Positions 1 to 35,962 of a DNA stretch of 37,030 nt are shown in pieces. The notes beneath the pieces are model-generated. The model did not search any database, was not told where the DNA came from, and saw nothing but the letters and a program-made list of their open reading frames with translations. The DNA comes from a virus, in IMG/VR virus record IMGVR_UViG_3300008107_000159, positions 1-37,030 of that record. One strand, written 5' to 3'. Every line of letters begins with the position of its first letter. The first letter of the stretch is position 1. Both the position numbers and the translations under genes were made by a program.

Positions 1-114
1 CGGCGGGTTTTTCTTTATTTGACTAAGCGAACAGCGGCCGGAACCGGTACCTGTTCGACCATGCGCCTAAGTTCTGATTTCGGCGTGTCGGCGAGCTCTG
101 GCGCGCAGAATATG
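1..114. repeat. Terminal direct repeat, left copy (contig circularisation overlap)
   Basis: Bases 1-114 are identical to 36917-37030. The repeat starts inside the terminator hairpin and runs into the 3' end of the primase-helicase gene, so it has no natural boundary. This is what an assembler leaves when it walks around a circular or circularly permuted molecule. The non-redundant genome is 36,916 bp. Headful packaging, as in P22, would produce such a map; I do not read this as a physical terminal repeat. Confidence 0.93.
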
Positions 115-2333
115 TGCTTTTTGGCGTCATACTCGCGTGACTTCAAGCGCCCCATGTCGACCCAGCCCGCCTCTTTGAGCGCGTGCAAGAGCGCCGCTTG
201 CGGTATCTTCACCCCTGATGGCGCGCCATGCACAATACGCTCACAAAGCGCGTAGAAGGGCGAAGCAACTACGCCGGTTGAGAACTCACCCAAGCGCGCG
301 CGCATCATGTCGACCAGATAAGACTCGGCAGTCGAGCGCCCCTGCTCGACCATGATCATTTTCGCCTCGGTCAACGGCGGCGCAGCGCCTGGATTAAATC
401 GGCTCACGTCACGCTGATAGAGCCATCCTGCGGCCGTGGCCACGCCACCGGCGGCGTACCAGTCCCATATCGCCTGCGCGTCACGCTCGGCCATCCTCGG
501 CGCGTCTGAGTACGTTACAAACCAGCGCCGATCGTCCGATGGCAACGACAGCGGCACGCGCTCATTAGAGAACGCTAGAACGAAAATGCGGTTCAGCGCC
601 TGATATGGGTGCAGGCCCTTGCGGTTCACTTGCAGGAACTCGGGCGGCGCTGCAATGATGGGCTTTAGATGGTTCTCAAGCGCGCGTCGATCTTTCGCTT
701 CCGCTTGGCGCAGCTCTTCGAATACCATCACTTCCGACTCGAGCGCGTAGCCCCACTGCGACATAATTTCTTCGTTACGCACAATCGACACGTTCGCGAG
801 CGACTCGCCACCGATGCCCCATAGCAGCGGTTGCCACATAGTGTCTTTGCCCGACCCTGGGTTACCGATATGCAGCACCGCATGGTTAATCTTTTTGTTC
901 GGGTTCTGCAGCTTGTAGGCCATCACGTTTAGCACATGCTCGCGCTCAGACACGTCCGGGATCATCCGCTCGACATGCTCGAGCCAGACGCGCGGGTTAC
1001 CAGTAGCCGCCGCCGGTCGGTGATCAATCCAGCGGTTACCGTACACCTGCCCCTCGCGCGCCACCTGAACGCTCTCGCCTGCCGCGTAGGTGATCCCGGC
1101 CAACGTCAAGGCGCCCAGCTTCTGGCGGTTCTCATCAAAACAGACTGACGCTTCAATCCGGCGCTTGTAACGGCTCGGGTGAATCGAGAAACAGGTCACA
1201 TGCCGGTAGAGCGCATTGAAGGTGCTGCGCGCGACTTCCCGGCGGTCGTGCAGGTCGAAGTACGCGTCCTCGGACTCGATATACGCGTAGCGGGTGTACC
1301 AGTCGGCCTTTTCGACTCGGTCGCGCTGCTTTTTCTCGACATCGGCAATTATCTCGGCCGCGGTATCGGGAAATGCTTCGGTCGGGGTCAGTTGCGACAG
1401 CGTATGGCTCATCGTCTGCGCCAGCAGCTCGTCACGCAGCCCAGGCGCGTGCTTGGGGCCGCCATTGGCCGCGACCCAATCCAAGAACACGTTGGAGTCT
1501 AAGTCGATGCAGTGGCTGTGCAGGCAGCAGTAGGAACGCGTAGCAGGGCTATAGCGCCCTTCCGGGTTGCCATCGGTATGCTCGGCACTGTTCGGGCAGA
1601 TGACGCCCGCCCAGCCTGCAGGATTCGGTAGCGACAGCAGTAGCCCTTGGCCCGAGAGCCACGCCATGACGTCGTCCGCCCCATCATCCGACAAGCGGAT
1701 CGGACGCACGCCGAGCGATTCGGCAGGCGCAGGTGTCACGCCAAGCGCGTCGCATATCTCGGTCAGACTGTACTCGCGCTCGGGGTGAAACTCGACCAGC
1801 TGTGCAGCGAACCGGTCGCGCCCGGGCTTTAGATTGATCGACCCCGGCAGGCGGAAGTTGCGCACCGCATTGCAGGCGCCCGGGTCGGTGTAGCCTGCGT
1901 CAGCGATCGCTTTGATGGCTGCAGCGTACTCGGCCTTGGTCGGCTGATCGTCTAGGCTGAACGTGTAGCCCCATTGGAACGATCCGGCGGACGTCTCGAT
2001 AATCCATGTCGGTGGCAGCTGCGGTGTCTTCGGCGCCTTGATCGGGTCGCCCACGTCGTCCAGCACCATGACGAGGACGTACTCGCAATTCGCGGCACTC
2101 GCTGACGGTTTGCCATCGGTAAAGCGGTCGACGATAAACGACGCCGTGTTGCCGTACCATGCCTGATCGGCCTTGATCTTGCGGGCGTCGGGTAGCGCAG
2201 CAGGCCAAGTGCATTTGATCGCACCATCGGCGTGGAACTGCAGCTCACCGTCTTTTAGTTGTGGCTTTTGGCGCACAATCAGCGCCGTCTCGCCTTCAGG
2301 TGCGAGTTTTGTGTAATAATCAAGAAATTCCAA
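15..2333 (-). CDS. Primase-helicase (AEP-like primase fused to SF3/DUF5906-type helicase)
   Basis: 772 aa, last gene of the leftward replication operon. The N-terminal part (about 80-200) resembles an archaeo-eukaryotic-type/RepB-like primase: a VLVMVLDD strand near 86-93 and the motif RNFRLPGSINLKPG at 158-171. Cys/His residues follow (C246, H252, C269, C270, H272, H274, C275) and may bind zinc. The C-terminal part is an ATPase: Walker A GNPGSGKDT at 490-498, Walker B VMVFEE at 535-540, and the SNERVPL...DRRW segment at 589-604 typical of phage DUF5906 primase-helicases. It would prime and unwind DNA at the phage fork. The start codon is TTG; a strong GGAGGGG Shine-Dalgarno lies a few bases upstream and no better ATG precedes it. 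The metal ligands and primase activity are inferred. Confidence 0.9.
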   Translation of the reverse strand: MEFLDYYTKLAPEGETALIVRQKPQLKDGELQFHADGAIKCTWPAALPDARKIKADQAWYGNTASFIVDRFTDGKPSASAANCEYVLVMVLDDVGDPIKAPKTPQLPPTWIIETSAGSFQWGYTFSLDDQPTKAEYAAAIKAIADAGYTDPGACNAVRNFRLPGSINLKPGRDRFAAQLVEFHPEREYSLTEICDALGVTPAPAESLGVRPIRLSDDGADDVMAWLSGQGLLLSLPNPAGWAGVICPNSAEHTDGNPEGRYSPATRSYCCLHSHCIDLDSNVFLDWVAANGGPKHAPGLRDELLAQTMSHTLSQLTPTEAFPDTAAEIIADVEKKQRDRVEKADWYTRYAYIESEDAYFDLHDRREVARSTFNALYRHVTCFSIHPSRYKRRIEASVCFDENRQKLGALTLAGITYAAGESVQVAREGQVYGNRWIDHRPAAATGNPRVWLEHVERMIPDVSEREHVLNVMAYKLQNPNKKINHAVLHIGNPGSGKDTMWQPLLWGIGGESLANVSIVRNEEIMSQWGYALESEVMVFEELRQAEAKDRRALENHLKPIIAAPPEFLQVNRKGLHPYQALNRIFVLAFSNERVPLSLPSDDRRWFVTYSDAPRMAERDAQAIWDWYAAGGVATAAGWLYQRDVSRFNPGAAPPLTEAKMIMVEQGRSTAESYLVDMMRARLGEFSTGVVASPFYALCERIVHGAPSGVKIPQAALLHALKEAGWVDMGRLKSREYDAKKHIFCAPELADTPKSELRRMVEQVPVPAAVRLVK

Positions 2334-2354: not shown

Positions 2355-2378
2355 GCCGCCCCGCCAGGCGGCTTTTTT
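2355..2378 (+). terminator. Intrinsic terminator, rightward, inside the leftward operon
   Basis: GCCGCC (2355-2360) pairs with GGCGGC (2367-2372) across a 6-base loop. Six T's (2373-2378) and then ATTTT follow on the + strand. On the - strand the hairpin is followed by CTCAACC, with no U-tract. It sits in the 43-bp gap between the polymerase stop (2377) and the primase start. It would stop rightward antisense transcription, for example read-through past the terminator at 36908, rather than the operon's own transcript. Confidence 0.7.
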
Positions 2379-4335
2379 ATTTTCCGTACCGCTCCATTAC
2401 TTTGACGCCAGCCTTCAAGGGCAACCCTTGCGCCCATGCAGGCGCCGTGCACATGACCTCGACTAGCCGCTGCTTGGATGCTTCAGGGTTAGCGGCCTCG
2501 AGGACGATCTCATCGTGAACGTGTAGGACTGTTTCGGGAAGTTGGCGTAAAGAATGCCGCAGCAAGTCGTGCGCGATTGCCTGCGTTATATTCTCACAGG
2601 CCAGCCCCCGCCACAAGCGCGCGCGCGGCCATTCCTTCGCATCCGCTGCAGGCTTCCATGCCGCCTTGACGTACGTGATCTCATCACCCTCGAACTTAGC
2701 AAATGGATAGCATAGGATCCGACCCGAGGGCAGCGCGTACCATAGGTGCTGGCCGTCATACATGTAGGTGATGCGCCCGACCGAGAACTCGCGCCCTGGG
2801 TTGCGTAGCGCACGCGTGTACGCCTCTTCGAGCTTGCTCCAGTAGCGCACTGCCCACGGATTAGCGCGACGCCATGCGTCAACGATCCGGCGGGAGTCGG
2901 ACTCGGGCAGCACAATGCCGTAGTTGCGACCCATCGCCGAGAACGCGCCGACCGAGCCACCGAAACCGAGCGACAGGATCGCGACCTTGCCGATCTGGCG
3001 CTCTTCGGACTCGTCGCCGATGTCCTCTTCGGGCATACGGTAGATGCCTGCGGCCTCACGCTTGTAGATGTCGCGCCCCTGTCGGAACACGTCCAGCACC
3101 GACTCGGCCTGCGGGTCAGCGGACGCCCACGGTGTGACGCGTGCCTCGATGGCTGACCAGTCGGCAACGACGAAGGAGTGTCCGGGCGCAGGAATCAGTG
3201 CGGGCCGGAGCATTCCCCGGAGAACATCTGTAATGCGTTTTCCAAATCTTGGGGTGACGCTGTGGCCTCGCACCATAGCGTGGCGTACTGCGTCGGGTTC
3301 CTTGGCGCACTTACGAGTGAAGTTGTGAAATTGAGCGCCGTAGGAGCTGGCGCGTCCGGTGGCGGATCCACCAGCGAAAACGAATGCGCCCCGTACGCGA
3401 TGGTCTTCAACATCCGCGAGAGCTGCAAGGCGACTAAACTTCGCGACCGAAGACGCCCAGATGTCACTCGCACATTGAATGACGTCCGCAACATTGGCCG
3501 GAATCTCATCGGGGTTTTCCTCTGCAAAGTTAAGCAAATTAGCGCGTACGGCCTTATCGATACTGTACTTCTTTTCGCCGTCTTTGTAGACCACCATCAT
3601 CTCTTTCGCCTGCGGCCCAACACGCTCCAACACCCACTCACGCATACGCGGGCTGCGCACGGACTTGATCTCGCCCTCGGTCACTTCGGCGACGATCCGC
3701 TCGATGTCGTCCGTCTCCTGCGACGCGTAGCTGACCGCGGCCTGCGCGAGCGGCAGGTCAAGCAGCACGCCCCGATCGTTGATGCGCTCATTGACGTGGT
3801 AATCGAGCAGCTCGTCATCCGACAGGTCGCGCATGGCCTTACTGATGGCACGCATGGCACGGACGTCCTGCTCGCAGTATTGGATCATCTCGGCCATCAA
3901 GGCCGGGTCGTCGTTAAAGCTGCCATCTGCCCGTGCAATTGATAAAGCTCGGATAAGCTGGCTACCTCGATGATCCTTACGCATGTTGCTGCTGATGGCG
4001 CGTCCGACGTCTTCAAGGCTGCCCGGTAGGCAGTTAGCACGCGCTTGAGTAGCGGTGCAGTAGAACTGCTCGAGTTGAAAGTCACACTGTAAAACGTACC
4101 AGAATATGAGTCGCTCGAACGCCGCATTGTGAGCGCGTATCTGCCCCGTGTGCTGGCGTACAGCATCGGGAAATGGCATGTCGGGAGTCCAGGTGACAAC
4201 CTCGTCATCGTCAAACGCGTAGGACATGCAAAGTACATCGGTGGTTCCGTCTTGCGCATAGTTATAGACTCCCCGTGCGGTGAGGTCGCAGCGACTGCGC
4301 GTCTCGAAGTCAATCCAGAGAATAGACATAGTCAT
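2377..4335 (-). CDS. Family A DNA polymerase with 3'-5' exonuclease domain
   Basis: 652 aa, phage-sized PolA without a 5'-3' nuclease domain. The DnaQ-type proofreading domain shows ExoI DFET (D9, E11), ExoII HNAAFE (69-74) and ExoIII YCEQD (Y153, D157). The polymerase domain shows motif A VVADWSAIEAR (D392), O-helix motif B RQIGK...LGFGG (446-460, K450) and motif C HVHDEIV (H607, D608, E609). Aligning K450 with E. coli Pol I K758 puts L454 at the F762 position, a residue that affects nucleotide selection and speed. It lies downstream of DUF2800 and the 214-aa gene and upstream of the primase-helicase, so it is the replicative polymerase. Start: ATG at 4335; a second ATG two codons in is possible and the Shine-Dalgarno is weak (GGAG about 13 nt upstream). 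Confidence 0.96.
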   Translation of the reverse strand: MTMSILWIDFETRSRCDLTARGVYNYAQDGTTDVLCMSYAFDDDEVVTWTPDMPFPDAVRQHTGQIRAHNAAFERLIFWYVLQCDFQLEQFYCTATQARANCLPGSLEDVGRAISSNMRKDHRGSQLIRALSIARADGSFNDDPALMAEMIQYCEQDVRAMRAISKAMRDLSDDELLDYHVNERINDRGVLLDLPLAQAAVSYASQETDDIERIVAEVTEGEIKSVRSPRMREWVLERVGPQAKEMMVVYKDGEKKYSIDKAVRANLLNFAEENPDEIPANVADVIQCASDIWASSVAKFSRLAALADVEDHRVRGAFVFAGGSATGRASSYGAQFHNFTRKCAKEPDAVRHAMVRGHSVTPRFGKRITDVLRGMLRPALIPAPGHSFVVADWSAIEARVTPWASADPQAESVLDVFRQGRDIYKREAAGIYRMPEEDIGDESEERQIGKVAILSLGFGGSVGAFSAMGRNYGIVLPESDSRRIVDAWRRANPWAVRYWSKLEEAYTRALRNPGREFSVGRITYMYDGQHLWYALPSGRILCYPFAKFEGDEITYVKAAWKPAADAKEWPRARLWRGLACENITQAIAHDLLRHSLRQLPETVLHVHDEIVLEAANPEASKQRLVEVMCTAPAWAQGLPLKAGVKVMERYGK

Positions 4336-4503: not shown

Positions 4504-5148
4504 TTAACCGCGACGACGACGTGCTGGTGCAGCCTCGGCAGCAGGCGCTGCTTCTTCTGCAGGCGCTTCGTCGCGCTCGCCGTCCATGCCGACCCACGTC
4601 ACCAGCTCGAACACTGGCGTGTAGATGCGACCGTACGACTTGTGCTGGTAGTGGTCTTTCTTCAGACGCACGACCGGCACCGGCTTGCTTTGGTCTTTCT
4701 CAACCTGTTCGGCAATCGCAACCGCTAACGATTGAACCGCACGCTTACCGCCGACAGACGTGACGGTGTAACGCGCTTCCATGTCCTTGTCAGCGCCTTC
4801 GACGCATTTTAGTGACATGCCGACTTGTGGCTCCCAACCCCGCTTAGCGTTGGGCGGTGCTGCTTCCATCTCTGGTAGCGGCTCGGTGACCGGCACCATC
4901 TTCTCGCCCAAGACTTCACCCTCACCCCATGCAATAAAGCCATGCACGAACGAGAAAGGATTGATCGCCCACAGTGCGTCGTCTTCGACTTCGGTTTGGT
5001 CTGCACCAAACACCCAATGGCCGGTCTTATCCATTTTCAGGATGACCGCGCCAGCCGGGCCGACTTCAGTCTCAAGCGCACGCAGCGCGGTGGAGAGGGT
5101 AGATACTGCAGGCAGGTTAGCGCCTTTGAAGGTTACGATATTGGACAT
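4504..5148 (-). CDS. Conserved phage replication-region protein, function unknown
   Basis: 214 aa from ATG at 5148. A GTG directly before it could also start, but AAGGAG lies 7 nt before the ATG. That Shine-Dalgarno overlaps the TAA of the upstream nuclease gene, implying translational coupling. The body contains DKTGHWVFGADQTEVED and WAINPFSFVHGFIAWG, a pattern I associate with an uncharacterised protein found beside DUF2800 and polA in other phages. The tail is Ala/Glu/Pro-rich (about 190-205) and ends in basic ARRRRG, unlike the acidic tip of bacterial SSB. Its place between the nuclease and polymerase suggests a DNA-binding or accessory replication role, for example an SSB substitute. That is inference. 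Confidence 0.8.
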   Translation of the reverse strand: MSNIVTFKGANLPAVSTLSTALRALETEVGPAGAVILKMDKTGHWVFGADQTEVEDDALWAINPFSFVHGFIAWGEGEVLGEKMVPVTEPLPEMEAAPPNAKRGWEPQVGMSLKCVEGADKDMEARYTVTSVGGKRAVQSLAVAIAEQVEKDQSKPVPVVRLKKDHYQHKSYGRIYTPVFELVTWVGMDGERDEAPAEEAAPAAEAAPARRRRG

Positions 5149-5159
5149 CACTGTACTCC

Positions 5160-6284
5160 TTATTGAAGTTTAGAGAGGGCTGCAGTTAACTGCTTCCCGA
5201 TTTGCAAAACCGCTGGCCTCGGATCAGAGTCCGGTGCCAACGTATCGCCCGAAGAGATAGCAACGACCATCTCAGCGGGAAATTCGATTTTAGCCTTTTT
5301 CAGCGTCTTCTCGAGCTGTGCAGGCGACTTTATTTTTACCGGTTCGTACGCGTCCTTGATATTGTTCGCGTCGACCCATGCTTCGATCTTTGCTTCGTCT
5401 ACCCACTGCCGCGTCGCACGTTTGGCGACCAGTTTGTAACCTGGCACCGGCTGACCATTCTCAAGCATCTGAAACGCTAACGCACGCAGGTCACGCAGAT
5501 AATCCTCGATCGCGTCCGCCTGCTGTAGCTGCTGGCTGATCTGCTCAGCAGGCAGGTTCACCAGTTGCAGCTTCAACGCGCGCTCAACAGCGCCAGTCAT
5601 CTGCGGGCAGATCGGCTTGGCGGCACACCAGCGGCAATGATCACCCGTCTGCATCGGTGGCTCTGGCCAGGAAGACAGGTTAACCGCGTAGCGCAGCTCT
5701 TGCTCGAACTCACGCACACGCTCGAACGTCGTCACCCAACGACGGATCATCGGGGGTTGCACGATGATGCACTCGATCTCGTCAGCGCCTTCGAACACCC
5801 ACTTGGCCGCTTCGGTGCGCATGGCAGCGGCTGCGTAGAACAGCAACTGCGGATTCTCAACGGCGTCAACCACTACCCCGTCGCCAAACTTCCAGTCGAT
5901 AACGAATGCACGGTTATCACGGCGGCCAAGCAGATCAGTGCTGCCGAAAACATCAGGTAGAAAATCACCAAAGCCAACGCGAGTCTCAACCATGTACTCC
6001 ATTCGCTTGTCCGGATCAATTTCATCGAGGGCCGCGAGAGCGGGAATAATTTTCTCATCGATTAGCTCCTGTGTAAGTACCTGATCTTTGTATGTGGCGC
6101 CGATGCACTGCTCGGGCTTCTTGTCGAACTCCAGCAGCTCGGCAATCACATTGTGCAGGAGCGTGCCACGATCGGCGTGTTCGTTAGATGGCTTGGGTGG
6201 CATCTTGGCGCACAAGGCGACCGACGCCGGACAGTTGATGACGCGCTTGGCGGTGCTGCCGCCGACGATATTAGAGTGATTCAT
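5160..6284 (-). CDS. DUF2800 RecB/Cas4-like PD-(D/E)XK nuclease
   Basis: 374 aa. The nuclease core is visible: H44 in a GTLLHNVIAEL helix, D117 in GSTDLLG, then VIDWKFGDG (D130, K132) and NPQLLFYA (Q146, Y150). One N-terminal cysteine (C18, VINCPAS) and three C-terminal ones (C217-x2-C220-x5-C226) match the four-cysteine [4Fe-4S] arrangement of Cas4/AddB-type exonucleases. It probably processes DNA ends in phage recombination or replication. The ATG at 6284 has GGAGG about 6 nt upstream, located inside the preceding 58-aa gene, whose end it overlaps by 14 bp. The nuclease assignment is firm; the Fe-S cluster is inferred from spacing. Confidence 0.9.
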   Translation of the reverse strand: MNHSNIVGGSTAKRVINCPASVALCAKMPPKPSNEHADRGTLLHNVIAELLEFDKKPEQCIGATYKDQVLTQELIDEKIIPALAALDEIDPDKRMEYMVETRVGFGDFLPDVFGSTDLLGRRDNRAFVIDWKFGDGVVVDAVENPQLLFYAAAAMRTEAAKWVFEGADEIECIIVQPPMIRRWVTTFERVREFEQELRYAVNLSSWPEPPMQTGDHCRWCAAKPICPQMTGAVERALKLQLVNLPAEQISQQLQQADAIEDYLRDLRALAFQMLENGQPVPGYKLVAKRATRQWVDEAKIEAWVDANNIKDAYEPVKIKSPAQLEKTLKKAKIEFPAEMVVAISSGDTLAPDSDPRPAVLQIGKQLTAALSKLQ

Positions 6285-6810: not shown

Positions 6811-7030
6811 CATTCTGCGCATGGCGCGGGAAGTTGCTGGCGTTACTTACCCGGCTGGGGTGGCCGAGGTAAAGATAGGAATGTCAGAAGAACATCTTGA
6901 ACGCTTTGCCGCTCTAGTCGCAGCAGCAGAACGCGAGGCGTGCGCGAAGGTGTGTGAATCAGCAGGGCCTAGTGCAGGGCAAATATATTGCGCGTTCGCT
7001 ATCCGCGCCAGAGGCAACGATGCAGCTTAG
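6788..7030 (+). CDS. Small conserved phage protein (80 aa)
   Basis: Begins MNGLNRDDILRMAREVAG and contains LERFAALVAAAEREACAKVCES, a helical pattern common in uncharacterised phage and prophage proteins. The ATG at 6788 has GGGAG about 9 nt upstream; a TTG one codon earlier is less likely. The gene overlaps the end of VRR-NUC by 23 bp and the helicase start by 11 bp. The C-terminus AIRARGND is also typical. Function unknown. Confidence 0.78.
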   Translation: MNGLNRDDILRMAREVAGVTYPAGVAEVKIGMSEEHLERFAALVAAAEREACAKVCESAGPSAGQIYCAFAIRARGNDAA

Positions 7031-8357
7031 ACCTTACCAGGAGGAAGCGGCTGACTTCCTGTACGAGCGCGATCGGGCGATGATCTTGGCGCCCGTGGGC
7101 GCAGGCAAGACCGCGATCACGCTGACCGCCATGCAGGCGATGGTGCAGGACGGCTACGCCAGTCGCTTCCTAGTGCTGGCACCCAAGCGCGTGTGTACGG
7201 ACGTCTGGCCGATCGAGGTGCCGAAGTGGTCACCGGGCTTGACTTACCGCGTGGCGGTCGGCAGCCCGAAAGATCGCGCGGCAGCACTGCGCTCGACCAG
7301 CGAGATCGTCATCATCAACTACGACAACATTCAGTGGTTGGCCGAACAGAATCTGTCCGATTTCGACGCTGTGGTGTTCGACGAGCTGACCAAACTCAAG
7401 AACCCCTCCGGCACACGCTTTAAGGCGCTGCACAAGGTCATCGACCAGTTCAAGATTCGTTGGGGTCTGACCGGGTCGTTTACCAGCAACGGGCTCGAGG
7501 ACGTGTTCGGGCAGTGCAAGATCGTCGACGAGAAGCTCTTAGGCCGTGCCAAGGGCGCCTTCTTGCAGCAATACTTTGTCTGTATGAACCGCGACTTCGG
7601 CGAGTGGATGCCACGCCCAGGCGCACTGCAGCAGGTCATGGAGCGCATCAAGCCCGCAACGTACCTGCTGGAGCCGGGCGTCTATAAGGACAAGCTACCG
7701 CCGGGTCACGTCGTCGAGCTGCGGTGTGACCTAGACGACCGCGCACCGTACGAGAAGATGAAGAAGGACTTTGTGGTGCAGTTCCCGACCGCCGAAATAC
7801 TGGCGGCGAACGCCGCGGCTGTTACATCAAAGTTGCAACAGATGGCGTCCGGCTTTGCGTACGACAGTCAGCGCACCGCGTCTGCCGTGCCGGGTCAGTT
7901 TACTTCGAGCAAGACGGCGGTCTGGTTTAGCAGTCACAAGTTTGATCGGTTGGATGAACTACTACAGGAGAACCAGCGTGCGAATACCTTATTGGTCTAT
8001 CAGTTTCAGGAGGAGCTTGCAGAGATCAAGCGTCGCTATCCGCAGGTTCAGACGCTGGATGATGTTGACGCGGTGGCGCGTTGGAATAATGGGCTGGTCG
8101 AGCTTATGGCCATTCACCCGAAAAGCGCGGGACACGGACTCAACCTACAGCACGGAGGGAGCTGCATTGCTTTTATATCCCTACCGTGGAGCCTTGAGCT
8201 GTACGAGCAGACCGTCGGACGTCTGCATCGTTCCGGGCAATTGCGAGAGGTATGGGTGTATATCCTTATGGCACAGAGAACGGTCGACGAGAAAATTTGG
8301 GCCGCCCTGCACGACAAACGAGCCATCTCAGACATCGCATTGGAGGCATTGAAATGA
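7020..8357 (+). CDS. SNF2-type (SF2) DNA helicase/ATPase
   Basis: 445 aa. Motifs in order: LRPYQ (3-7), Walker A PVGAGKT (25-31), DELT (121-124, the DEAx box), LTGS (150-153), SAGHGLNLQ (369-377, motif V) and QTVGRLHRSGQ (397-407, motif VI). A compact SNF2/RapA-like core; family members move along double-stranded DNA using ATP. I start it at the ATG at 7020 (GAGG 5 nt upstream) because LRPYQ directly follows it. A GTG at 6954 would add 22 residues translated from the upstream gene. With VRR-NUC it forms a common phage helicase-nuclease pair, probably for recombination or fork repair. Confidence 0.92.
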   Translation: MQLRPYQEEAADFLYERDRAMILAPVGAGKTAITLTAMQAMVQDGYASRFLVLAPKRVCTDVWPIEVPKWSPGLTYRVAVGSPKDRAAALRSTSEIVIINYDNIQWLAEQNLSDFDAVVFDELTKLKNPSGTRFKALHKVIDQFKIRWGLTGSFTSNGLEDVFGQCKIVDEKLLGRAKGAFLQQYFVCMNRDFGEWMPRPGALQQVMERIKPATYLLEPGVYKDKLPPGHVVELRCDLDDRAPYEKMKKDFVVQFPTAEILAANAAAVTSKLQQMASGFAYDSQRTASAVPGQFTSSKTAVWFSSHKFDRLDELLQENQRANTLLVYQFQEELAEIKRRYPQVQTLDDVDAVARWNNGLVELMAIHPKSAGHGLNLQHGGSCIAFISLPWSLELYEQTVGRLHRSGQLREVWVYILMAQRTVDEKIWAALHDKRAISDIALEALK

Positions 8358-9291: not shown

Positions 9292-9451
9292 CTACTGGAA
9301 GGCTAAGCTGCCTGCTGCACGCGCCGAGGAGCGCGCGCGGCAGCGCGAGCTGAACCAAATGGAGCGCGCATTCCAACGCGCCGTGGACGAAGTAGCACGA
9401 ATTGAAACAAGGATAGAAGATGAAAAAGCTAAGCTGGCGCGCACTAAATGA
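9278..9451 (+). CDS. Short coiled-coil protein (57 aa), GTG start
   Basis: GTG at 9278 with GGAGG about 9 nt upstream, overlapping the previous gene by 14 bp. Reads RRIDYWKAKLPAARAEERAR and continues as a charged amphipathic helix rich in Glu, Arg and Ala, likely a coiled coil. The frame stays open further upstream to an ATG at 9209, but that part would be translated from the neighbour's sequence, so I prefer the GTG. Function unknown. Confidence 0.6.
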   Translation: MRRIDYWKAKLPAARAEERARQRELNQMERAFQRAVDEVARIETRIEDEKAKLARTK

Positions 9452-9614
9452 TCAGCTGCCCAAGCTCTCGGAAGACGAGGTGTTCGCCATGTTGACCGCT
9501 GAGCTCTTGCATGAGAAGCGCAGCTCGATCCTGCAGCGGCTGCACCAGCGCTACTGCGCGCTGCGTGACGCCCGTGAGCGGGTCGAGATACTGAGCCAGG
9601 CGGCCAAACCATGA
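9420..9614 (+). CDS. Small conserved phage protein (64 aa)
   Basis: Starts MKKLSWRALNDQLPKLSEDE and contains RRSSILQRLHQRYCALRDARERVEIL-type helices (about 33-58). The combination of a short N-terminal strand, a LxEDEVxxML helix and ILxRLHQRYCALR is familiar from many phage genomes without known function. Purine-rich AAGGA lies before the ATG. Overlaps the previous gene by 32 bp and the next by 4. Confidence 0.8.
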   Translation: MKKLSWRALNDQLPKLSEDEVFAMLTAELLHEKRSSILQRLHQRYCALRDARERVEILSQAAKP

Positions 9615-9856
9615 AATGTATGACCTGTAACGAACGCACCTACGTCGTCAACGTTATCAAGATGGCAGGCGGCCTGCGGCGCCAACGCAAGTGCAAAGCC
9701 TGCGGGGCGGGCGCCTACAGCGCCGAGGTGTGGCTGCGCGCAACGGCCAATGGGGCTGAACCTGTTTATACTAAAGAAGAGGCAGCGTTAATAAAAAAGA
9801 AAGCGGTTGACGCACGCCGTGCAAATGAAGATAGGAGGAAGAAAAATGCTACGTGA
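9611..9856 (+). CDS. Zinc-ribbon protein (81 aa)
   Basis: Two CxxC knuckles, C3-MT-C6 and C28-KA-C31, spaced like a zinc ribbon, with basic residues RRQRK before the second, recalling the NrdR-type N-terminal ribbon. The C-terminal third is a Lys/Arg/Ala-rich helix. It may bind nucleic acid. ATGA overlap with the upstream gene. The family assignment is structural only; no ATP-cone or other NrdR domain is present. Confidence 0.78.
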   Translation: MKCMTCNERTYVVNVIKMAGGLRRQRKCKACGAGAYSAEVWLRATANGAEPVYTKEEAALIKKKAVDARRANEDRRKKNAT

Positions 9857-10028
9857 TGGATACTTCATCAAGGAAGAGCCGCCGAAGATCGGCGCGCATT
9901 ACACGCCGCAGTTCTATCAGAAACCCACAACGCCTGAAGAGCGCTTTGTGCAAGACGTGATGTTGGGTATGATGCCCTACAAGGAATCACCGCTCACCAA
10001 GTTCTTGGGGAGGCTGCTACGGATATGA
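9846..10028 (+). CDS. Hypothetical protein (60 aa)
   Basis: ATG at 9846 with a strong AGGAGG 8 nt upstream, which decides this start over an in-frame ATG at 9807. Reads MLRDGYFIKEEPPKIGAHYT and later PEERFVQDVMLGM. No family recognised. Overlaps the zinc-ribbon gene by 11 bp and the next gene by 4 (ATGA). Confidence 0.7.
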   Translation: MLRDGYFIKEEPPKIGAHYTPQFYQKPTTPEERFVQDVMLGMMPYKESPLTKFLGRLLRI

Positions 10029-10213
10029 AAGACCTTGTGGTGGTGTACTACGCGGCCATCGCGGTGGCCACGTTTACTTTTCTTGCCATTGGCTTGCCCG
10101 AGCCCAAGGGGCCTACACCGATGGAGTGCACGTCGAAAGACATGACCGTGTGGCAGACCACACGCGACCGTGTCATCTGCCAGCAGTTACGCGAGCATCG
10201 TTACCGCATGTGA
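10025..10213 (+). CDS. Small membrane-anchored protein (62 aa), last rightward early gene
   Basis: One N-terminal membrane segment (about 5-24, VVVYYAAIAVATFTFLAIGL), then a Pro-rich linker and a short domain with two cysteines (MECTSKD, RVICQQL) and a basic end. Architecture only: it could be an inner-membrane effector or a spanin-like subunit. The ATGA junction shows it belongs to the early operon. Its last 27 bp overlap the 3' end of the lysozyme gene on the other strand. Confidence 0.65.
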   Translation: MKDLVVVYYAAIAVATFTFLAIGLPEPKGPTPMECTSKDMTVWQTTRDRVICQQLREHRYRM

Positions 10214-14844: not shown

Positions 14845-16944
14845 TTAATTCCTCAATTCGTTGCGATTCTGGGGCGCCAACATATTCGACACAGACGCAG
14901 CACCGGTAAGTTGCGCTCGGTTGACCTTCTGCAGCGCATTGTAAACCCTGCCTCGGTCGCCAAACGGCACTTCGTTTAACATGTCCTCAAAGTTTTTGCC
15001 TGACTGAAACCCGCGCTCCAAAATCTGCATGGTTTTGTCATTGATGCGTCCCGACAATTCTTTTAGCACCGCGTTACCGACAGTGGCTTTCAAACCAAAA
15101 AAAGGCAGTCTAAGCGTCGGGGTAGTTTCTTTTACAATGTCTTTTAAGTGAGCAGCGCCAGTTTCTGCCCCAGCTTTTATTTTTCTAGCTTGTTCCAGTT
15201 CATGCGCAACATTGTCTAGCGCTTGGAACTTGCTGCCCATTTCGCGTTTTAGATCAATACGACCGCTACCAAAAATTTCTTCGACCAAATCGGGTCGCTC
15301 ACCACGCACCAACGCGACAAATTCATCGGGGCTTTTCTTGTACAAGTCGCGGGCGGCCTGCGCCATCTTGCGCTGGTTGATGACGTCCATGCCGTGCGAG
15401 AAGGTATCGAGGTAATCTTTCCAACCGGTGCCACCCGCTTTGATAATCGCATCATCAATCAACGGGCGTACTTCACCCAACAATTTAGATGCGTATTTGG
15501 CTGACGTTTTAGGGTCTTTACCTAAACTCTCAACAACTTCAGTAATGGTGCCTTTACGAATTTCGTACAGCGCGCGCGCATCAATAACGCCGCCATTGCG
15601 AGCTGTCCATTCTTTAATTTTGTTGGATACCGCAGACAGTACCTGGCGGTTAATGTCCGACACGCCAATCTTAGGGTCGTTTAGTTTAGCGTTGATGTCA
15701 CGGATGACACCGTCCGTGTCTAGCGGCGACAGCCCTTCCGCTTTTAAGCTATCCGCACGGCGTTGAGCAAAACGAGAACCTTCACCATACAAACGCGATT
15801 CTTCGGCAGCGCGGGTAGCTACGCGTTCTGCCGCATCCTCCATTTCGCCGGTAAATTTCAACCTATCCGCACTAACGTTTGGCGATAAATCGGCCTGAGT
15901 TTTAGCGGCGTTAAGTCGTTGACGCGCAGCCGTAAACCGGCGCACATCATCTACCTTACTAGCCGCTATCTCCCCCAACGTGGTAGCTTGGCGTTCTAGC
16001 CGCTGCTTGTATTTGCCGGTGTTAGCAGCGGCTAATTCAGCCTCACGCATCGGTGTGGTGACGTTCGTCAGCGCATCTTTGGATTTGGCTAGGTTGTTCA
16101 GGATTTCCGTGTTGGTCGCACCACCCGCCAAGTTGTCTAGCGTGGACTGGCGCGTCTGTTCGCGCAGTTTGTTTAACTTGGAATAGAAATTGGTGGTGTC
16201 CTTGGTGCTGGCTAACTCACCTAACGCATGGATTTGATTGCGGTCAAGATCGGCCAACAGTTCTGCAACTGTCAATCCGGTTTTATCTTGATCTAAAATT
16301 GCGCGTATCTTGCTAAGGTCTTCGCCTGCGGCTTTACGTGCAATCGTTGCAGCAGCTTTTTCGGCTTCCGGCACCAATTTGCCGTAGGCGTACTTACCCG
16401 CGCCTGCTATGGGCGTTAGTGGGTTAGTGTAGGTAGCCGCCTTAGTTAATGCGCCTGCCGTTGTCGTTGCGCCTGCTTTACCTGCGACTCCGGCGCCGCC
16501 GCTAAAAATAGTGGATAGGTCACCCAAAAAGCCTACAGGGTCTTCAGCAACGGTTCGCTTAAGATTTTCGTAGCCGCCATATCTATCCGCCATCAAATCC
16601 GCAAACCCGCCGCGAGCTTGTTTTGCTCGTGCCAACGAATCGCCACCATACAGAAAGCTAGGCGTAACCGGCTCCATTACGCCGCCTAAGATGTCACCTA
16701 GCGCGGTTACAGTTTGAACAGGGCTGGTGACGGCGGTGACTAAGTTGGATCCAAATTCAACGGCACTTTTTGGCAGGTTGCGCAAAGCTGCGCCTGGCAC
16801 ATCGCTTAACCCATATTTGCGAGGAGCGGGGATTTCGCTAACCGTCATAGACGTTGGCGTAACCGTAACCTCCGGCAACGACTGCGCCTGTTCTAACTCT
16901 AACCGGCGCCGAAACTCAAACTCTTCTTGTTCGGTCATGGCCAT
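14845..16944 (-). CDS. Putative DNA-ejection (internal virion) protein, P22 gp16 position
   Basis: 699 aa. Long Ala/Lys/Glu-rich helical protein with a hydrophobic, Gly/Ala-rich region at about 145-190 (STIFSGGAGVAGKAGATTTA) that could insert into membrane, and extended coiled coils at about 210-480. Gene order gp7-like, 549 aa, this gene mirrors gp7-gp20-gp16 of P22, whose products leave the capsid and form a conduit for DNA. No lysozyme motif found. Assignment rests on order, size and composition. Confidence 0.68.
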   Translation of the reverse strand: MAMTEQEEFEFRRRLELEQAQSLPEVTVTPTSMTVSEIPAPRKYGLSDVPGAALRNLPKSAVEFGSNLVTAVTSPVQTVTALGDILGGVMEPVTPSFLYGGDSLARAKQARGGFADLMADRYGGYENLKRTVAEDPVGFLGDLSTIFSGGAGVAGKAGATTTAGALTKAATYTNPLTPIAGAGKYAYGKLVPEAEKAAATIARKAAGEDLSKIRAILDQDKTGLTVAELLADLDRNQIHALGELASTKDTTNFYSKLNKLREQTRQSTLDNLAGGATNTEILNNLAKSKDALTNVTTPMREAELAAANTGKYKQRLERQATTLGEIAASKVDDVRRFTAARQRLNAAKTQADLSPNVSADRLKFTGEMEDAAERVATRAAEESRLYGEGSRFAQRRADSLKAEGLSPLDTDGVIRDINAKLNDPKIGVSDINRQVLSAVSNKIKEWTARNGGVIDARALYEIRKGTITEVVESLGKDPKTSAKYASKLLGEVRPLIDDAIIKAGGTGWKDYLDTFSHGMDVINQRKMAQAARDLYKKSPDEFVALVRGERPDLVEEIFGSGRIDLKREMGSKFQALDNVAHELEQARKIKAGAETGAAHLKDIVKETTPTLRLPFFGLKATVGNAVLKELSGRINDKTMQILERGFQSGKNFEDMLNEVPFGDRGRVYNALQKVNRAQLTGAASVSNMLAPQNRNELRN

Positions 16945-26955: not shown

Positions 26956-27735
26956 TTAGTTTGTGGTGTTTTTAACCAAAAGAATAATGAACATGCAAGA
27001 AACGCCATTGTTAGCCGCGCTGCCTACACCGGTAGCTTCAATATCGGTTTTCTCTTCTATCCGCAACGGGTACTCAAACACATAGTCTGCTACACCGTTG
27101 TTGACCGTGGTGACCGCTGCGGTGCGACGGATACCGTCGGTGCCTGCAGTTAACAGCCGCCCGCGAACTTGGGTTGAGCCGGTAACTTGGCCCGCAGAAA
27201 ACAGCCCTTGCGACAGATAGCCGGTGTAGCCTGCCGGAATCGTGTAATGGCCGGTAACGGTGTTATTAAAGTCGTACTTGATAATGTTGTAGGTGGTTGC
27301 CGGTACACCGGAAGTCACCGTGCCGGTGCCAATATAGATGTCACCTGCGGCTGACTCTGTGCTACCTGCGGTCGCTACATAAGCGTAATTGACCCGCAAA
27401 AACGACTTCGACGTCAGCACTTCGGTTAACCCGTTTAGCGTCACCGTGTCCGTTATTTCGGCGTAGTTGGCGTCAAGCCCTTGAATGACGATCGTTCTTG
27501 CGCCAGTGCCTGCCGAGGTGTCGTTGGCGTTGGTCGAACTTACCTTCATCTGCAACGCAGCGTTTGGGTGCGCGATGATGGACGGCAGCGGCCAGACGGT
27601 TACTTCAGTCGTGTCAACATCCGCGTTGTAACCAAACACGGTGACATTACGGTGGTTAGGAATCTCGCTGCGTGAGACTTGTAGCTCAAACGGCTCGTTC
27701 TTACCAAATTTTGTCTGAGAAACCGGTGCGGTCAT
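26956..27735 (-). CDS. Hypothetical structural protein (259 aa)
   Basis: Beta-rich, Thr/Val-rich: FGYNADVDTTEVTVWP, ARTIVIQGLDANYAEITDTV, TLNGLTEVLTSKSFLRVNYA and a C-terminal EYPLRIEEKTDIEATGVGS. This layout resembles uncharacterised virion proteins of aquatic phages, possibly a head spike or vertex protein. Starts overlapping the upstream gene by 4 bp (ATGA) and ends 2 bp before the next ATG. Confidence 0.72.
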   Translation of the reverse strand: MTAPVSQTKFGKNEPFELQVSRSEIPNHRNVTVFGYNADVDTTEVTVWPLPSIIAHPNAALQMKVSSTNANDTSAGTGARTIVIQGLDANYAEITDTVTLNGLTEVLTSKSFLRVNYAYVATAGSTESAAGDIYIGTGTVTSGVPATTYNIIKYDFNNTVTGHYTIPAGYTGYLSQGLFSAGQVTGSTQVRGRLLTAGTDGIRRTAAVTTVNNGVADYVFEYPLRIEEKTDIEATGVGSAANNGVSCMFIILLVKNTTN

Positions 27736-28094
27736 GCCAAGAACCTTAGTTTGTACAGCGTGGACAGGTACAGCCCAACAATTTCATCGATGATGTTTTG
27801 CAGCGGGCTGTCCGACTTATCGACCACCTTGTACCGCATCTCTTCAATTTCTTCAAGCTGGTCTTGCAAGAATTCCACAATGTTGCCTGGCTTTTTGGTT
27901 GACTGCAGCGAAATAGCGCCGATCAGCCCGTGACGGCCTTGGTAGGCTTCCGCAAACTTGTCCGCCAGATCAACAATCTCGTCGTAAAACGTGTTCAGCG
28001 CCATGTGCTTCGAGAAGCTACGGGTGTTCAGATGCACCGAATGAGCCACATCGCGGCCCAAAAACAGGATGCCTACAAAGTTTGCGCAGCTCAT
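27732..28094 (-). CDS. DUF5856-like four-helix protein (120 aa)
   Basis: Contains FVGILFLGRDVAHSVHLNTR, SFSKHMALNTFYDEIVDLAD and KFAEAYQGRHGLIGAI, a His/Asp/Glu-bearing helical pattern that I associate with DUF5856, which looks like a small ferritin/Dps-type helical bundle. The metal-binding potential of H17, H21 and H30 and of the E/D residues is a guess. ATGA overlap with the portal stop. Role in the head cluster unknown. Confidence 0.72.
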   Translation of the reverse strand: MSCANFVGILFLGRDVAHSVHLNTRSFSKHMALNTFYDEIVDLADKFAEAYQGRHGLIGAISLQSTKKPGNIVEFLQDQLEEIEEMRYKVVDKSDSPLQNIIDEIVGLYLSTLYKLRFLA

Positions 28095-33918: not shown

Positions 33919-34012
33919 GGCGGCATGGTAATGGATTTTTTAAAAAAATAAAAAATTTTGTGTAACACCTCCGTGGACGTGACCGCCCGGCCGCGGGCCC
34001 CCCACCCCCCAT

Positions 34013-34128
34013 GTTAGTAAGCACTCACTCTTTTTGTTGTCAGCCTAGTAAGTTAGTAAGCACTCACTAACTTTTGCCAGATTAGTAAGCACTAACTAAC
34101 TTGCCCAGGTTAGTGAGCACTTACTAAC
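34013..34128. repeat. Four 20-bp imperfect palindromes (operator- or iteron-like)
   Basis: Copies begin at 34013, 34052, 34081 and 34109; consensus RTTAGTRAGCACTHACTAAC. Arms GTTAGT and ACTAAC are inverted repeats; the first copy lacks the last three matching bases. Spacing is 39, 29 and 28 bp between starts, the last two close to integral helical turns. The size and dyad symmetry fit binding sites of a dimeric repressor, with TetR-family operators similar in look. No such regulator gene is recognised in the window. Confidence 0.8.
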
Positions 34129-34141
34129 CGATGTTAGCGAT

Positions 34142-34490
34142 TGTGGACCATGCAAATTGTCCACACAAATTAGCGCCAGCGCGAACGTAAAAGTGTTATC
34201 AAAAAAGAATCGAATCTGTGGATAACTTTTTGCCGGACAAAATGTTGCCAAAAAGCTATGTGGACAATGTGGACAATCGTAGAGGCCGTTTTAAATCGCT
34301 GCGCGTGCGAGAGCGTGCGCTCATCCGGACAATCTATTAGCAGTATGATAACATTTTTAAGTTCCTATAGTTCAACAGATTTTATTGTCCACATTGTCCA
34401 CAAATAGCTAAAACCCGCACTGTCCCTCGAATGTGGCGTGGACAATCGCGCCGATTTTCATAGTCCACACTCTTGTCCACGCTGTCCACA
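34142..34490. repeat. Array of DnaA-box-like 9-mers (TTGTCCACA)
   Basis: A perfect DnaA box TGTGGATAA (TTATCCACA on the - strand) is at 34217-34225. TGTGGACAA or its complement TTGTCCACA occurs exactly at 34157-34165, 34259-34267, 34268-34276, 34385-34393 and 34394-34402. One- or two-base variants lie at 34142, 34232, 34324, 34437, 34461, 34473 and 34482. The abutting pairs at 34259-34276 and 34385-34402 form a perfect 18-bp inverted repeat around a 108-bp segment. Such tandem 9-bp spacing suggests cooperative loading of an initiator. Confidence 0.82.
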
Positions 34491-34519
34491 AAAAAGCCGA
34501 AAAAAGTGTAAAATAATCC

Positions 34520-34547
34520 TTGACACTTTTCTTTTCTCTGCTATACT
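34520..34547 (+). promoter_or_regulatory. Strong rightward promoter for the right-arm operon
   Basis: TTGACA (34520-34525), 16-bp spacer, TATACT (34542-34547). The predicted start near 34554 leaves a leader of about 58 nt before the first gene. GTAAAATAATCCTTG immediately upstream and into the -35 is identical to 6491-6505 at the divergent early promoters. Confidence 0.8.
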
Positions 34548-34611
34548 TTGTCTTGCAGCAAAACAATGTAGTGCAAATCAGCTGACTAATTTTTAAGCAA
34601 AGGGGTCGAAA

Positions 34612-34776
34612 ATGTACGCACACATATACAAAGCGCCAAAGAAAACCTGGAAATTAATTATTTCCCGCAGCGCTGAAATTACCGCCGAGCACGTAGTGAT
34701 TGAATATCAGGTAGAAAGCAAAACCGAAGCGAAGCGAATCGCCAAAGCGCACGGCGCCAAACCTTGGAATTACTAA
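34612..34776 (+). CDS. Small conserved phage protein (54 aa), first right-arm gene
   Basis: MYAHIYKAPKKTWKLIISRS, then AEITAEHVVIEYQVESKTEA and KRIAKAHGAKPWNY. A small alpha/beta protein with a basic surface; similar short proteins with a C-terminal aromatic end are found in early regions of other phages. AAGGGG lies about 7 nt before the ATG. Directly downstream of the strong promoter and origin-like array, so it is probably made early and in quantity. Confidence 0.75.
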   Translation: MYAHIYKAPKKTWKLIISRSAEITAEHVVIEYQVESKTEAKRIAKAHGAKPWNY

Positions 34777-34784
34777 ACCAAACC

Positions 34785-34802
34785 GGCCGGCGCAAGCCGG
34801 CC
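34785..34802 (+). terminator. GC-rich hairpin with GCAA tetraloop between the first two right-arm genes
   Basis: GGCCGGC and GCCGGCC (7-bp perfect stem) close a GNRA-type GCAA loop, 8 bp after the 54-aa gene's stop. ATCATTAGG follows, with no U-tract, so it is more likely a partial attenuator or an mRNA stabiliser than a full terminator. Confidence 0.5.
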
Positions 34803-34821
34803 ATCATTAGGGAAAAACATC

Positions 34822-34908
34822 ATGAAACAAACAATTTTCGAAATGTTATTAGGTCTTATCGCTTTTCTGTATTTGTGGGCATTTCTTTTTGTTTTGATGT
34901 CATTCTAA
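34822..34908 (+). CDS. 28-aa single-span membrane protein
   Basis: MKQTIFEMLLGLIAFLYLWA then FLFVLMSF: practically the whole protein is one hydrophobic helix. AGGG lies about 9 nt before the ATG. Small membrane proteins like this in early phage regions can act as toxins, exclusion factors or regulators of host membrane enzymes; none is proven here. Too short for most gene finders. Confidence 0.6.
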   Translation: MKQTIFEMLLGLIAFLYLWAFLFVLMSF

Positions 34909-34932
34909 AAACTTGTTATAGGTGATCCGACC

Positions 34933-35685
34933 ATGCAAAACCCTTTCAAACTGCAGTTAAAACGTGAAAGCCTGGAATACCGGCCGATTCTCGGCGAATC
35001 ATCCGCCAAAACCGTTAAGGGTGAAAAAATCGGCTACTTAACGGCCATTTGCTACCTGGTACCTGATAAAAAGCTTTGCCCGTTCGCAATACAAGCGGGA
35101 TGTTTTGACCCTTGCCTAAACTCGGCCGGACGTGGCGCTTTTAACAGTACACAAAAAGCGCGCGCGGCCAAAACCGCATTTTTCAAAGAAAATCAGCGCG
35201 CTTTCATGCTCTCGCTTTGCGCTGATATCTGGACGCATCAACGCCGAGCCGAAAAGCTCGGCTTGATACCGCTCGTTCGGCCGAACGGTACAAGCGATAT
35301 CCCGTTCGAAAACATCCAAATCGACGGCCGGACGATTTTCCAAATCTTTGCGGACGTTCAATTCTACGATTACACCAAGCACCCGAGCCGAAACTTGGCC
35401 GGAAAAACGGCCGGTAACTATGATTTAACGTACTCATTCAGCGCGATAACGCCGAAACCAATCAGTATCAAGGGTCTGACGAATCCGGCCAATAAACGGA
35501 CGGCCGTCGTATTCCAGCGCCAAGCCGATATTCCGGCCGAGTTTCGCGGATGGCCGGTAGTGGACGGTGACGATACAGATGTTCGACATATTGAGCCCGA
35601 GCGCGTGGTAGTAGCCTTGTATGCAAAAGGCAAGGCCAAGCGCGATACCGGCGGATTCGTTCAAATCAAGGGAAGGGATTACTAA
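34933..35685 (+). CDS. gp88-family phage protein, function unknown
   Basis: 250 aa. Matches the 'Gene product 88' family in outline: GYLTAICYLVPDKKLCPFAI with four cysteines (C40, C49, C57, C61), ARAAKTAFF, VRPNGTSDIPFENI (R116, N118-P124), ADVQFYDYTKHPSR (140-153) and NYDLTYSFSA. The Cys cluster could hold a metal or Fe-S cluster and the NGTSD and FYDYTK motifs look catalytic, but no activity is known to me. The largest gene of the right arm, and so probably the key function of this module. Confidence 0.8.
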   Translation: MQNPFKLQLKRESLEYRPILGESSAKTVKGEKIGYLTAICYLVPDKKLCPFAIQAGCFDPCLNSAGRGAFNSTQKARAAKTAFFKENQRAFMLSLCADIWTHQRRAEKLGLIPLVRPNGTSDIPFENIQIDGRTIFQIFADVQFYDYTKHPSRNLAGKTAGNYDLTYSFSAITPKPISIKGLTNPANKRTAVVFQRQADIPAEFRGWPVVDGDDTDVRHIEPERVVVALYAKGKAKRDTGGFVQIKGRDY

Positions 35686-35686
35686 A

Positions 35687-35962
35687 ATGAAAAACTATTT
35701 TTGGTGCGACGGTTCCGGCCGCGTTGAATTCACAATCACGCAAGCGCAAATTGATAACGTATGCCATACCGGCGCGAATGATGCGGCCGTTGCGGCCGAA
35801 TTAAAACCCGATATCGACCCGGCGCTTTTGAAAAGTATTTTGCGCGAATACGGCGCATGGGATGACGCCGAATTGTCGGATCACGCGGCTAACCTGGATC
35901 GGGTTTTCTGGCTCGCTTGCTGGGATTGTTTCGAGGATCCTGAAACTTATCTAGAGGGTTAA
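35687..35962 (+). CDS. Hypothetical protein (91 aa), acidic
   Basis: Begins MKNYFWCDGSGRVEFTITQA, then AQIDNVCHTGANDAAVAAEL, with an acidic helical end LDRVFWLACWDCFEDPETYL. Purine-rich AAGGG lies upstream and the ATG starts 1 bp after the gp88 stop. An in-frame ATG at 35621 lies inside gp88 and is rejected. Looks like a small protein of early phage regions with three to four Cys and many Trp; function unknown. Confidence 0.75.
   Translation: MKNYFWCDGSGRVEFTITQAQIDNVCHTGANDAAVAAELKPDIDPALLKSILREYGAWDDAELSDHAANLDRVFWLACWDCFEDPETYLEG

Follow-up and report, generated by a model that had tools for sequence, protein, structure and literature searches.

The leucine that occupies the equivalent of residue 762 of E. 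coli DNA polymerase I (Leu762) in the family A polymerase of the virus analysed here is, in all likelihood, an ancestral residue fixed in one phage polymerase lineage, that of the published Leu762 clades, and no sign of temperate growth; the clade to which the virus belongs is P22-like, integrase-free and most likely obligately lytic. Throughout, the window denotes the whole stretch of DNA that was analysed, i.e. the 37,030 nucleotides of IMG/VR record IMGVR_UViG_3300008107_000159. The original prediction had seen a paradox in a Leu762 polymerase of a phage devoid of a visible integrase, and had offered two readings, an unusual, plasmid-like type of lysogeny or a failure of the correlation between residue and lifestyle in this group. 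The observation itself stands, but the paradox is weak, since leucine is fixed family-wide while integrase carriage varies; of the two readings, the failed correlation fits best.

The literature link between Leu762 and temperate phages, on which this prediction drew, is real, but it is graded and clade-specific there. In the passages drawn on here, Leu762 is said to occur 'primarily' (PMC6302109) or 'predominantly' (PMC13228545) in temperate phages, and the residue is presented as specific to particular clades (PMC6302109, PMC9069017, PMC13228545). Environmental viruses have nonetheless been classed as 'putative temperate' by this residue (PMC6302109, in the part used here). Virulent Leu762 phages are already known: according to the portion of a 2025 report drawn on here, twelve Bradyrhizobium elkanii phages with Leu762 are considered virulent and are without hallmark lysogeny genes, and the same dilemma between residue and missing genes is discussed for them (PMC12656738).

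Genome organization and replication module

The exact direct repeat that joins both ends of the 37,030-base record indicates a circular assembly (Table 1). In the replication module, the N-terminus of the primase-helicase resembles a RepB-type primase below the cut-off (RepB_primase, 18.3 bits versus 24.3), and the conserved protein adjoining polA is probably ssDNA-binding, judging from its position, as a single-stranded DNA-binding protein (SSB) is annotated in the same slot of phage DSL-LC05. No ribonucleotide reductase (RNR) was recognised among the PHROGs matches of 50 of the 53 listed open reading frames (ORFs). The virion proteins are of P22 type and follow each other in the order portal (phrog_156), scaffold (phrog_8865), coat (phrog_283), Hc3 (phrog_578) and Ad3 (phrog_637), the portal being annotated as P22-like in MW202483; moreover, the window carries endolysin and holin genes. 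Between portal and scaffold lies a 120-aa gene (27732-28094) which matches phrog_858, 'starvation-inducible transcriptional regulator', and DUF5856, and which is conserved at ~70% in MW202483 and DSL-LC05.

Table 1. Positions of the features discussed, numbered from the first base of the window
Feature	Position	Strand	Basis or remark
Exact direct repeat of the last 114 bases, 114 bp	1..114		Sequence
Primase-helicase	15..2333	minus	Pfam DUF5906 9.8e-11 (helicase-type C-terminal half); phrog_1156 DNA primase
polA, family A DNA polymerase, 652 aa	2377-4335	minus	Pfam DNA_pol_A 9.4e-16; phrog_17 'DNA polymerase' 2.4e-88 over residues 1-652
Motif B / O helix, R446-QIG-K450-VAI-L454-SLG-F458 (next residue G)	2962..3000	minus	MAFFT alignments, clade alignment
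L454 codon CTG	2974-2976	minus	Sequence
Conserved replication-module protein adjoining polA	4504..5151	minus	phrog_9528; no Pfam match
RecB/Cas4-like PD-(D/E)XK exonuclease (DUF2800)	5160..6284	minus	Pfam DUF2800 1.6e-56, PDDEXK_1 9.7e-16
SNF2-type superfamily II helicase	6954..8357	plus	Pfam SNF2-rel_dom 3.5e-13; phrog_62 2.2e-119
Four ~21-bp imperfectly palindromic repeats, TTAGTAAGCACTCACTAA type	34014..34130		Repeat family D1
TTGTCCACA-type repeat array, DnaA-box-like	34142..34492	both	One TTATCCACA at 34217
Sigma-70-type early promoter TTGACA-N16-TATACT	34520..34547	plus	Kept in relatives L002 and L003

Fixation of leucine 762

Leucine occupies position 762 in all 81 sequences of the set formed by the window and its 80 IMG/VR relatives, as well as in 25 of 25 diverse reference phages, which were hand-picked for host variety among the matches listed (1615 records match). 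The phylogenetic tree comprises 88 rows, namely 25 from the clade, the 25 references and 38 broader IMG/VR records, and was built without seven of the 45 broader Leu762 records, whose polymerase reading frame is cut, and, by choice, without three of the 28 clade records (L032-L034), which match the polymerase only partially. All 88 rows carry leucine, and a branch with full SH-aLRT support separates the window's clade from the rest. Because the broader IMG/VR rows were retrieved with a motif that already contains the leucine, they inform the test of integrase carriage described below and not that of fixation. At position 766, the family mostly features tyrosine (61 of 88 rows, phenylalanine in the other 27), whereas the clade of the window has phenylalanine.

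A motif scan of the IMG/VR viral contigs with the clade's motif B, leaving any residue at position 762, yielded at least 119 stretches, of which 115 were read and all 115 encode leucine; the corresponding scan for a phenylalanine or tyrosine version returned none. Six different leucine codons occur among the 115 matches read, and this diversity, together with the invariance among the 81 relatives, places the leucine beyond chance. The result agrees with the published monophyly of the Leu762 clades, among which reversions are described as rare or unseen in the parts of the reports used here (PMC13228545; PMC9069017). A correlation with lifestyle needs independent substitutions at the position, and none is apparent in the sequences compared.

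Distribution of integrases and other lysogeny genes

The absence of a visible integrase or repressor, as originally claimed, holds at the level of profile searches. Neither was recovered from 50 of the 53 listed ORFs by PHROGs scans, Pfam and PHROGs scans of the window gave no repressor, and six-frame searches of the record with the hidden Markov models (HMMs) PF00589 (tyrosine integrase), PF00239 (serine recombinase) and the CI/Cro-type HTH_3 were without match; the partition families AAA_31 (ParA) and ParB_N likewise had no match in the window. The same picture emerged for the clade, represented by 51 records (the window, MW202483 and 49 of the 80 IMG/VR relatives, among which longer records predominate, with 31 mostly shorter relatives outside the set): PF00589, PF00239 and AAA_31 each matched in 0 of 51, HTH_3 exceeded its cut-off in 0 of 51 and stayed sub-threshold in three, and among the 28 clade records of at least 30 kb neither ParB_N (0/28) nor rve (0/28) was found. 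Each of these lysogeny-gene searches gave the expected matches in control genomes that are known to carry the genes, although those with PF00589, PF00239, HTH_3 and ParA/B miss highly divergent versions.

Beyond the clade, PF00589 is present in six of the 25 reference phages (Javan135, DSS3-P1, QT1, phi 12, Bob and Stiles) and in 23 of 45 broader Leu762 IMG/VR records, these being the records of at least 30 kb among the 80 listed of 120 matches; these hits serve as a positive control of the search on records of the same kind. Going by name prefixes, 31 of the 45 are presumably metagenomic (14 with integrase) and 14 presumably isolate prophages (nine with integrase). The contrast between 0 of 28 in the clade and 14 of 31 among metagenomic Leu762 records gives a Fisher p of 2.3e-5, a value that ignores kinship and rests on this presumptive classing by name. 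On the 88-row tree, the integrase label requires 11 changes, 10 of which are forced by well-supported branches, as compared with 22.0 on average for shuffled labels; integrase carriage in the Leu762 family is thus clustered but labile. Two pairs of records, L257/L294 and L247/L250, combine near-identical polymerases with opposite integrase labels, which may reflect cut records. In a Tyr762 comparison set of 15 records of at least 25 kb, taken from the 80 listed of 120 matches, PF00589 occurs in four of 15, and in four of eight metagenomic ones of at least 30 kb; hence no contrast in integrase carriage between Leu762 and Tyr762 was seen (p 0.34), although with 15 Tyr762 records the sample has too little weight for a test of the correlation as published.

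Taken together, leucine is invariant over 88 rows against 11 integrase changes, and a clade with integrase in 0 of 51 records stands against 23 of 45 elsewhere, so that the failure of the correlation in this group, one of the two readings offered, is borne out. Since the residue is constant while integrase carriage changes, it is uninformative on lifestyle, a claim that is limited to the Leu762 family and the clade of the window. Consequently, with the residue fixed, the integrase labile and one clade (28 records of at least 30 kb) lacking it altogether, Leu762 should not be used for lifestyle calls on its own.

Repeat arrays and alternative modes of carriage

The iteron array that had been taken to suit a plasmid-like lysogeny does exist, as four 21-bp palindromic repeats followed by repeats of TTGTCCACA type. 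The motif TT[AG]TCCACA occurs six times in the 1014-bp intergenic stretch, against a mean of 0.034 in mononucleotide shuffles, and the arrays lie upstream of the conserved TTGACA/TATACT promoter. Relatives hold repeats of other sequence at the same place (window 34010-34560; L002 16800-17830; L003 10400-11700): the window has ATTGTCCACA, L002 has ATTGCCTACA and ATGACGTGCA, and others have ATTGCCCACA or ATGACCCACA. Among close relatives, the array types are TTGTCCACA, TTGCCTACA with TGACGTGCA, TTGCCCACA and TGACCCACA. An interpretation of the repeats at 34 kb as conserved DnaA boxes was rejected, because three boxes within 500 bp are reached in only one (L022) of the 41 relatives whose records extend for at least 7.5 kb downstream of polA. 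Between the window and L002 the replication genes are 97-98% identical, and 91-98% when several flanking genes are included, but the window block 34612-35962, made up of small ORFs and a gp88-type gene, is without a match in L002 and is replaced there. Joint divergence of arrays and a neighbouring gene block also occurs in immunity regions. The arrays could constitute either an origin whose initiator specificity changes or an operator region whose immunity does.

The foremost alternative to a fixed, uninformative leucine is that the virus is a plasmid-like prophage, in which the repeat arrays at 34.0-34.5 kb set copy number or immunity and Leu762 does mark a temperate phage. The location of the arrays at the early promoter, their divergence between close relatives, the replacement of the gp88-type block and the circular assembly all speak for it. 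Such arrays are, however, equally expected at the origin of a lytic phage, and the partition and repressor families expected of a plasmid prophage gave no hit above cut-off, as set out above (ParA 0/51, ParB 0/28). Moreover, the proposed search for an episome or prophage recognised none: among 72,556 plasmid records there is no close relative, the polymerase being matched by 20 of them at no more than 33% identity (the best match included) and portal and helicase only weakly, and a scan of genome contigs with two degenerate peptides, by which more distant copies are missed, returned 11 loci with the clade polymerase, among which no intact copy with host flanks was recognised. Ten of the 11 contigs are titled metagenome-assembled genome (MAG) and one an uncultured bin, and they are mostly proteobacterial, which points to betaproteobacteria such as Rhodoferax as possible hosts. 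For ten of them, blast found only clade homologues over the tested parts of the contig, the leftover ORFs having been judged by eye in five of the ten. These eleven contigs could stem from free virus that was binned with the bacteria or from episomes that the bacteria carried. Plasmid-like lysogeny, as originally suggested, is therefore unlikely.

In the eleventh contig, L117, Bacteroidota-like chromosomal genes (by eye Lon, LpxB and SurE-like) run into an HTH gene that continues in frame into polA within motif B (9310-10119). Since it is implausible that a prophage should be interrupted within its own polymerase gene, L117 was rejected as a prophage and is read as a probable assembly chimaera joined within the motif.

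A related and very unlikely possibility is that the clade is temperate by way of a carrier state free of both integrase and partition genes, in which the fast-changing arrays and the co-replaced gene block would set immunity or incompatibility. If true, environmental podoviruses of P22 type would possess a novel form of lysogeny, of which the Leu762 polymerase would be a marker. The variable arrays are the best remaining lead toward an unusual lysogeny, yet they are no evidence for it, as other explanations exist.

Integration without an integrase of its own, via host XerCD or transposition, is a route known in other phages and is highly improbable here, given the absence of rve (0/28) and of any host-flanked intact prophage. 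No convincing site for XerCD/dif integration was found in the window, where the best dif-like candidate has 6/22 arm mismatches as compared with 7-8 in six shuffles. Mu-like transposition was likewise discarded: the MuB_C match of ORF 14845-16944 scores 18.3 bits, below the cut-off of 25, and was judged to be due to chance; this ORF sits where virion ejection-type proteins lie.

Assignment of position 762 in the polymerase

The polymerase begins with a region of 3'-5' exonuclease type, in which D9, E11, Y153 and D157 are invariant among 21 aligned clade members, and continues with the polymerase domain, in which the catalytic D705, E710, K758 and D882 of E. coli all have equivalents. The leucine originally placed at position 762 was confirmed by MAFFT alignments of the window polymerase with the real E. 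coli PolA, T7 gp5 and 40 relatives. Each of the four modes sets R754, K758, F762 and Y766 against R446, K450, L454 and F458, the aspartate and glutamate residues D705/E710/D882 against D392/E397/D608, and Y526 of T7 against L454. In the AlphaFold model of the 652-aa protein (pLDDT 89.5, pTM 0.85), the predicted fold is Klenow-like and alignable over its whole length with Klenow-type structures, as judged by VIA comparison with 1kfd (Z 24.2, rmsd 4.0, 480 aligned) and 3ht3 (Z 25.6, rmsd 3.8, 523 aligned), and the O helix is predicted to be unbroken over residues 444-456; this structural check kept the placement of L454.

It is barely credible that F458 is the functional equivalent of residue 762 and the enzyme really of Phe type, for although a pairwise phmmer alignment with Klenow, the sole dissenting result, brings F762 opposite F458 by a 4-residue gap within motif B, and position 458 is phenylalanine in 77 of 81 clade rows, such a gap would interrupt the O helix as predicted and is rejected on that account, while all four multiple alignments are ungapped, with L454 in register with R754, K758 and Y766, and an alignment with the Aquifex polymerase (8jrb), equally ungapped, gives L454.

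The window polymerase thus combines Leu762 with Phe766, the latter provided by F458 (2962-2964). In the polymerase of Salmonella phage SETP3 (L091), an insertion of ~300 residues directly after the motif B lysine occupies an intein-like position.

Proposed role of the Leu762 polymerase

The favoured reading, that of an ancestral leucine without bearing on lifestyle, would entail the following course of events. The podovirus would copy its genome by means of the Leu762 polymerase, the RecB/Cas4-like exonuclease, the SNF2 helicase and the primase-helicase, a replisome module with which the leucine would have been inherited and which would be common to temperate and non-temperate phages. Within the active site, Leu454 would take the place of an aromatic side chain against which the sugar of the incoming nucleotide is otherwise packed; the surrounding residues are presumably co-adapted, e.g. 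F458 in place of Y766, so that the enzyme need not be crippled. Endolysin and holin would finally bring about lysis. Obligately lytic growth is most likely for the clade, as suggested by the lysogeny genes missing from its sequences, which also hold many small genes without assigned function. Leu762 would hence be a lineage marker of an SNF2/RecB-like replisome, in this case that of an apparently virulent podovirus of P22 type.

Comparison with known phages

Jerseyvirus, Kagunavirus, Dhillonvirus, Chivirus, Naesvirus and Whiteheadvirus are virulent, a lifestyle that entered none of the counts. Among the Leu762 reference rows, the polymerases of Naesvirus Bcep781 and of Xanthomonas phage XapPhi4 are placed closest to the clade on the tree (SH-aLRT 86) and belong to genomes without PF00589; their identity to the window polymerase amounts to 31.5% and 28.7%, respectively, on long branches that render the placement unsure.

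With the viral Leu762 PolA clades termed Groups I and II in the parts of the publications drawn on here (PMC6302109; Keown et al. 2022, PMC9069017), the window shares the leucine at position 762. In Group I, 55% have SNF2-like and 70% RecB-like neighbours and no RNR is present, according to the passage used (Nasko et al. 2018, PMC6302109). The window likewise features SNF2-like and RecB-like neighbours and no recognised RNR, a likeness of gene neighbourhood.

The Podoviridae sp. genome ctNMl277 (MW202483.1) has a polymerase of the same lineage (56%) and resembles the window in its primase-helicase (51%), portal (70%), terminase (69%) and coat (79%), but differs by an annotated DnaA-HTH gene and a cytosine methyltransferase on the opposite strand. 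Phage DSL-LC05 (OR003940.1, L232), which was predicted to be virulent by BACPHLIP according to the part of its description used here (PMC10611076), shares coat, portal, terminase and tail-connector proteins (gp10, gp4) with window positions 12000-34000 at 70-76% identity. Its replication block comprises a RecB-like exonuclease and an SNF2 helicase as does that of the window, albeit at only 26% and 30% identity, whereas its polymerase has no match to the window polA and is annotated as family B, with only a sub-cut-off match to the PolB exonuclease. Similar virions with unmatched polymerases argue for an exchange of polymerase type between close virions; hence, the comparison of the window with DSL-LC05 illustrates that the type of polymerase need not follow the lineage of the virus.
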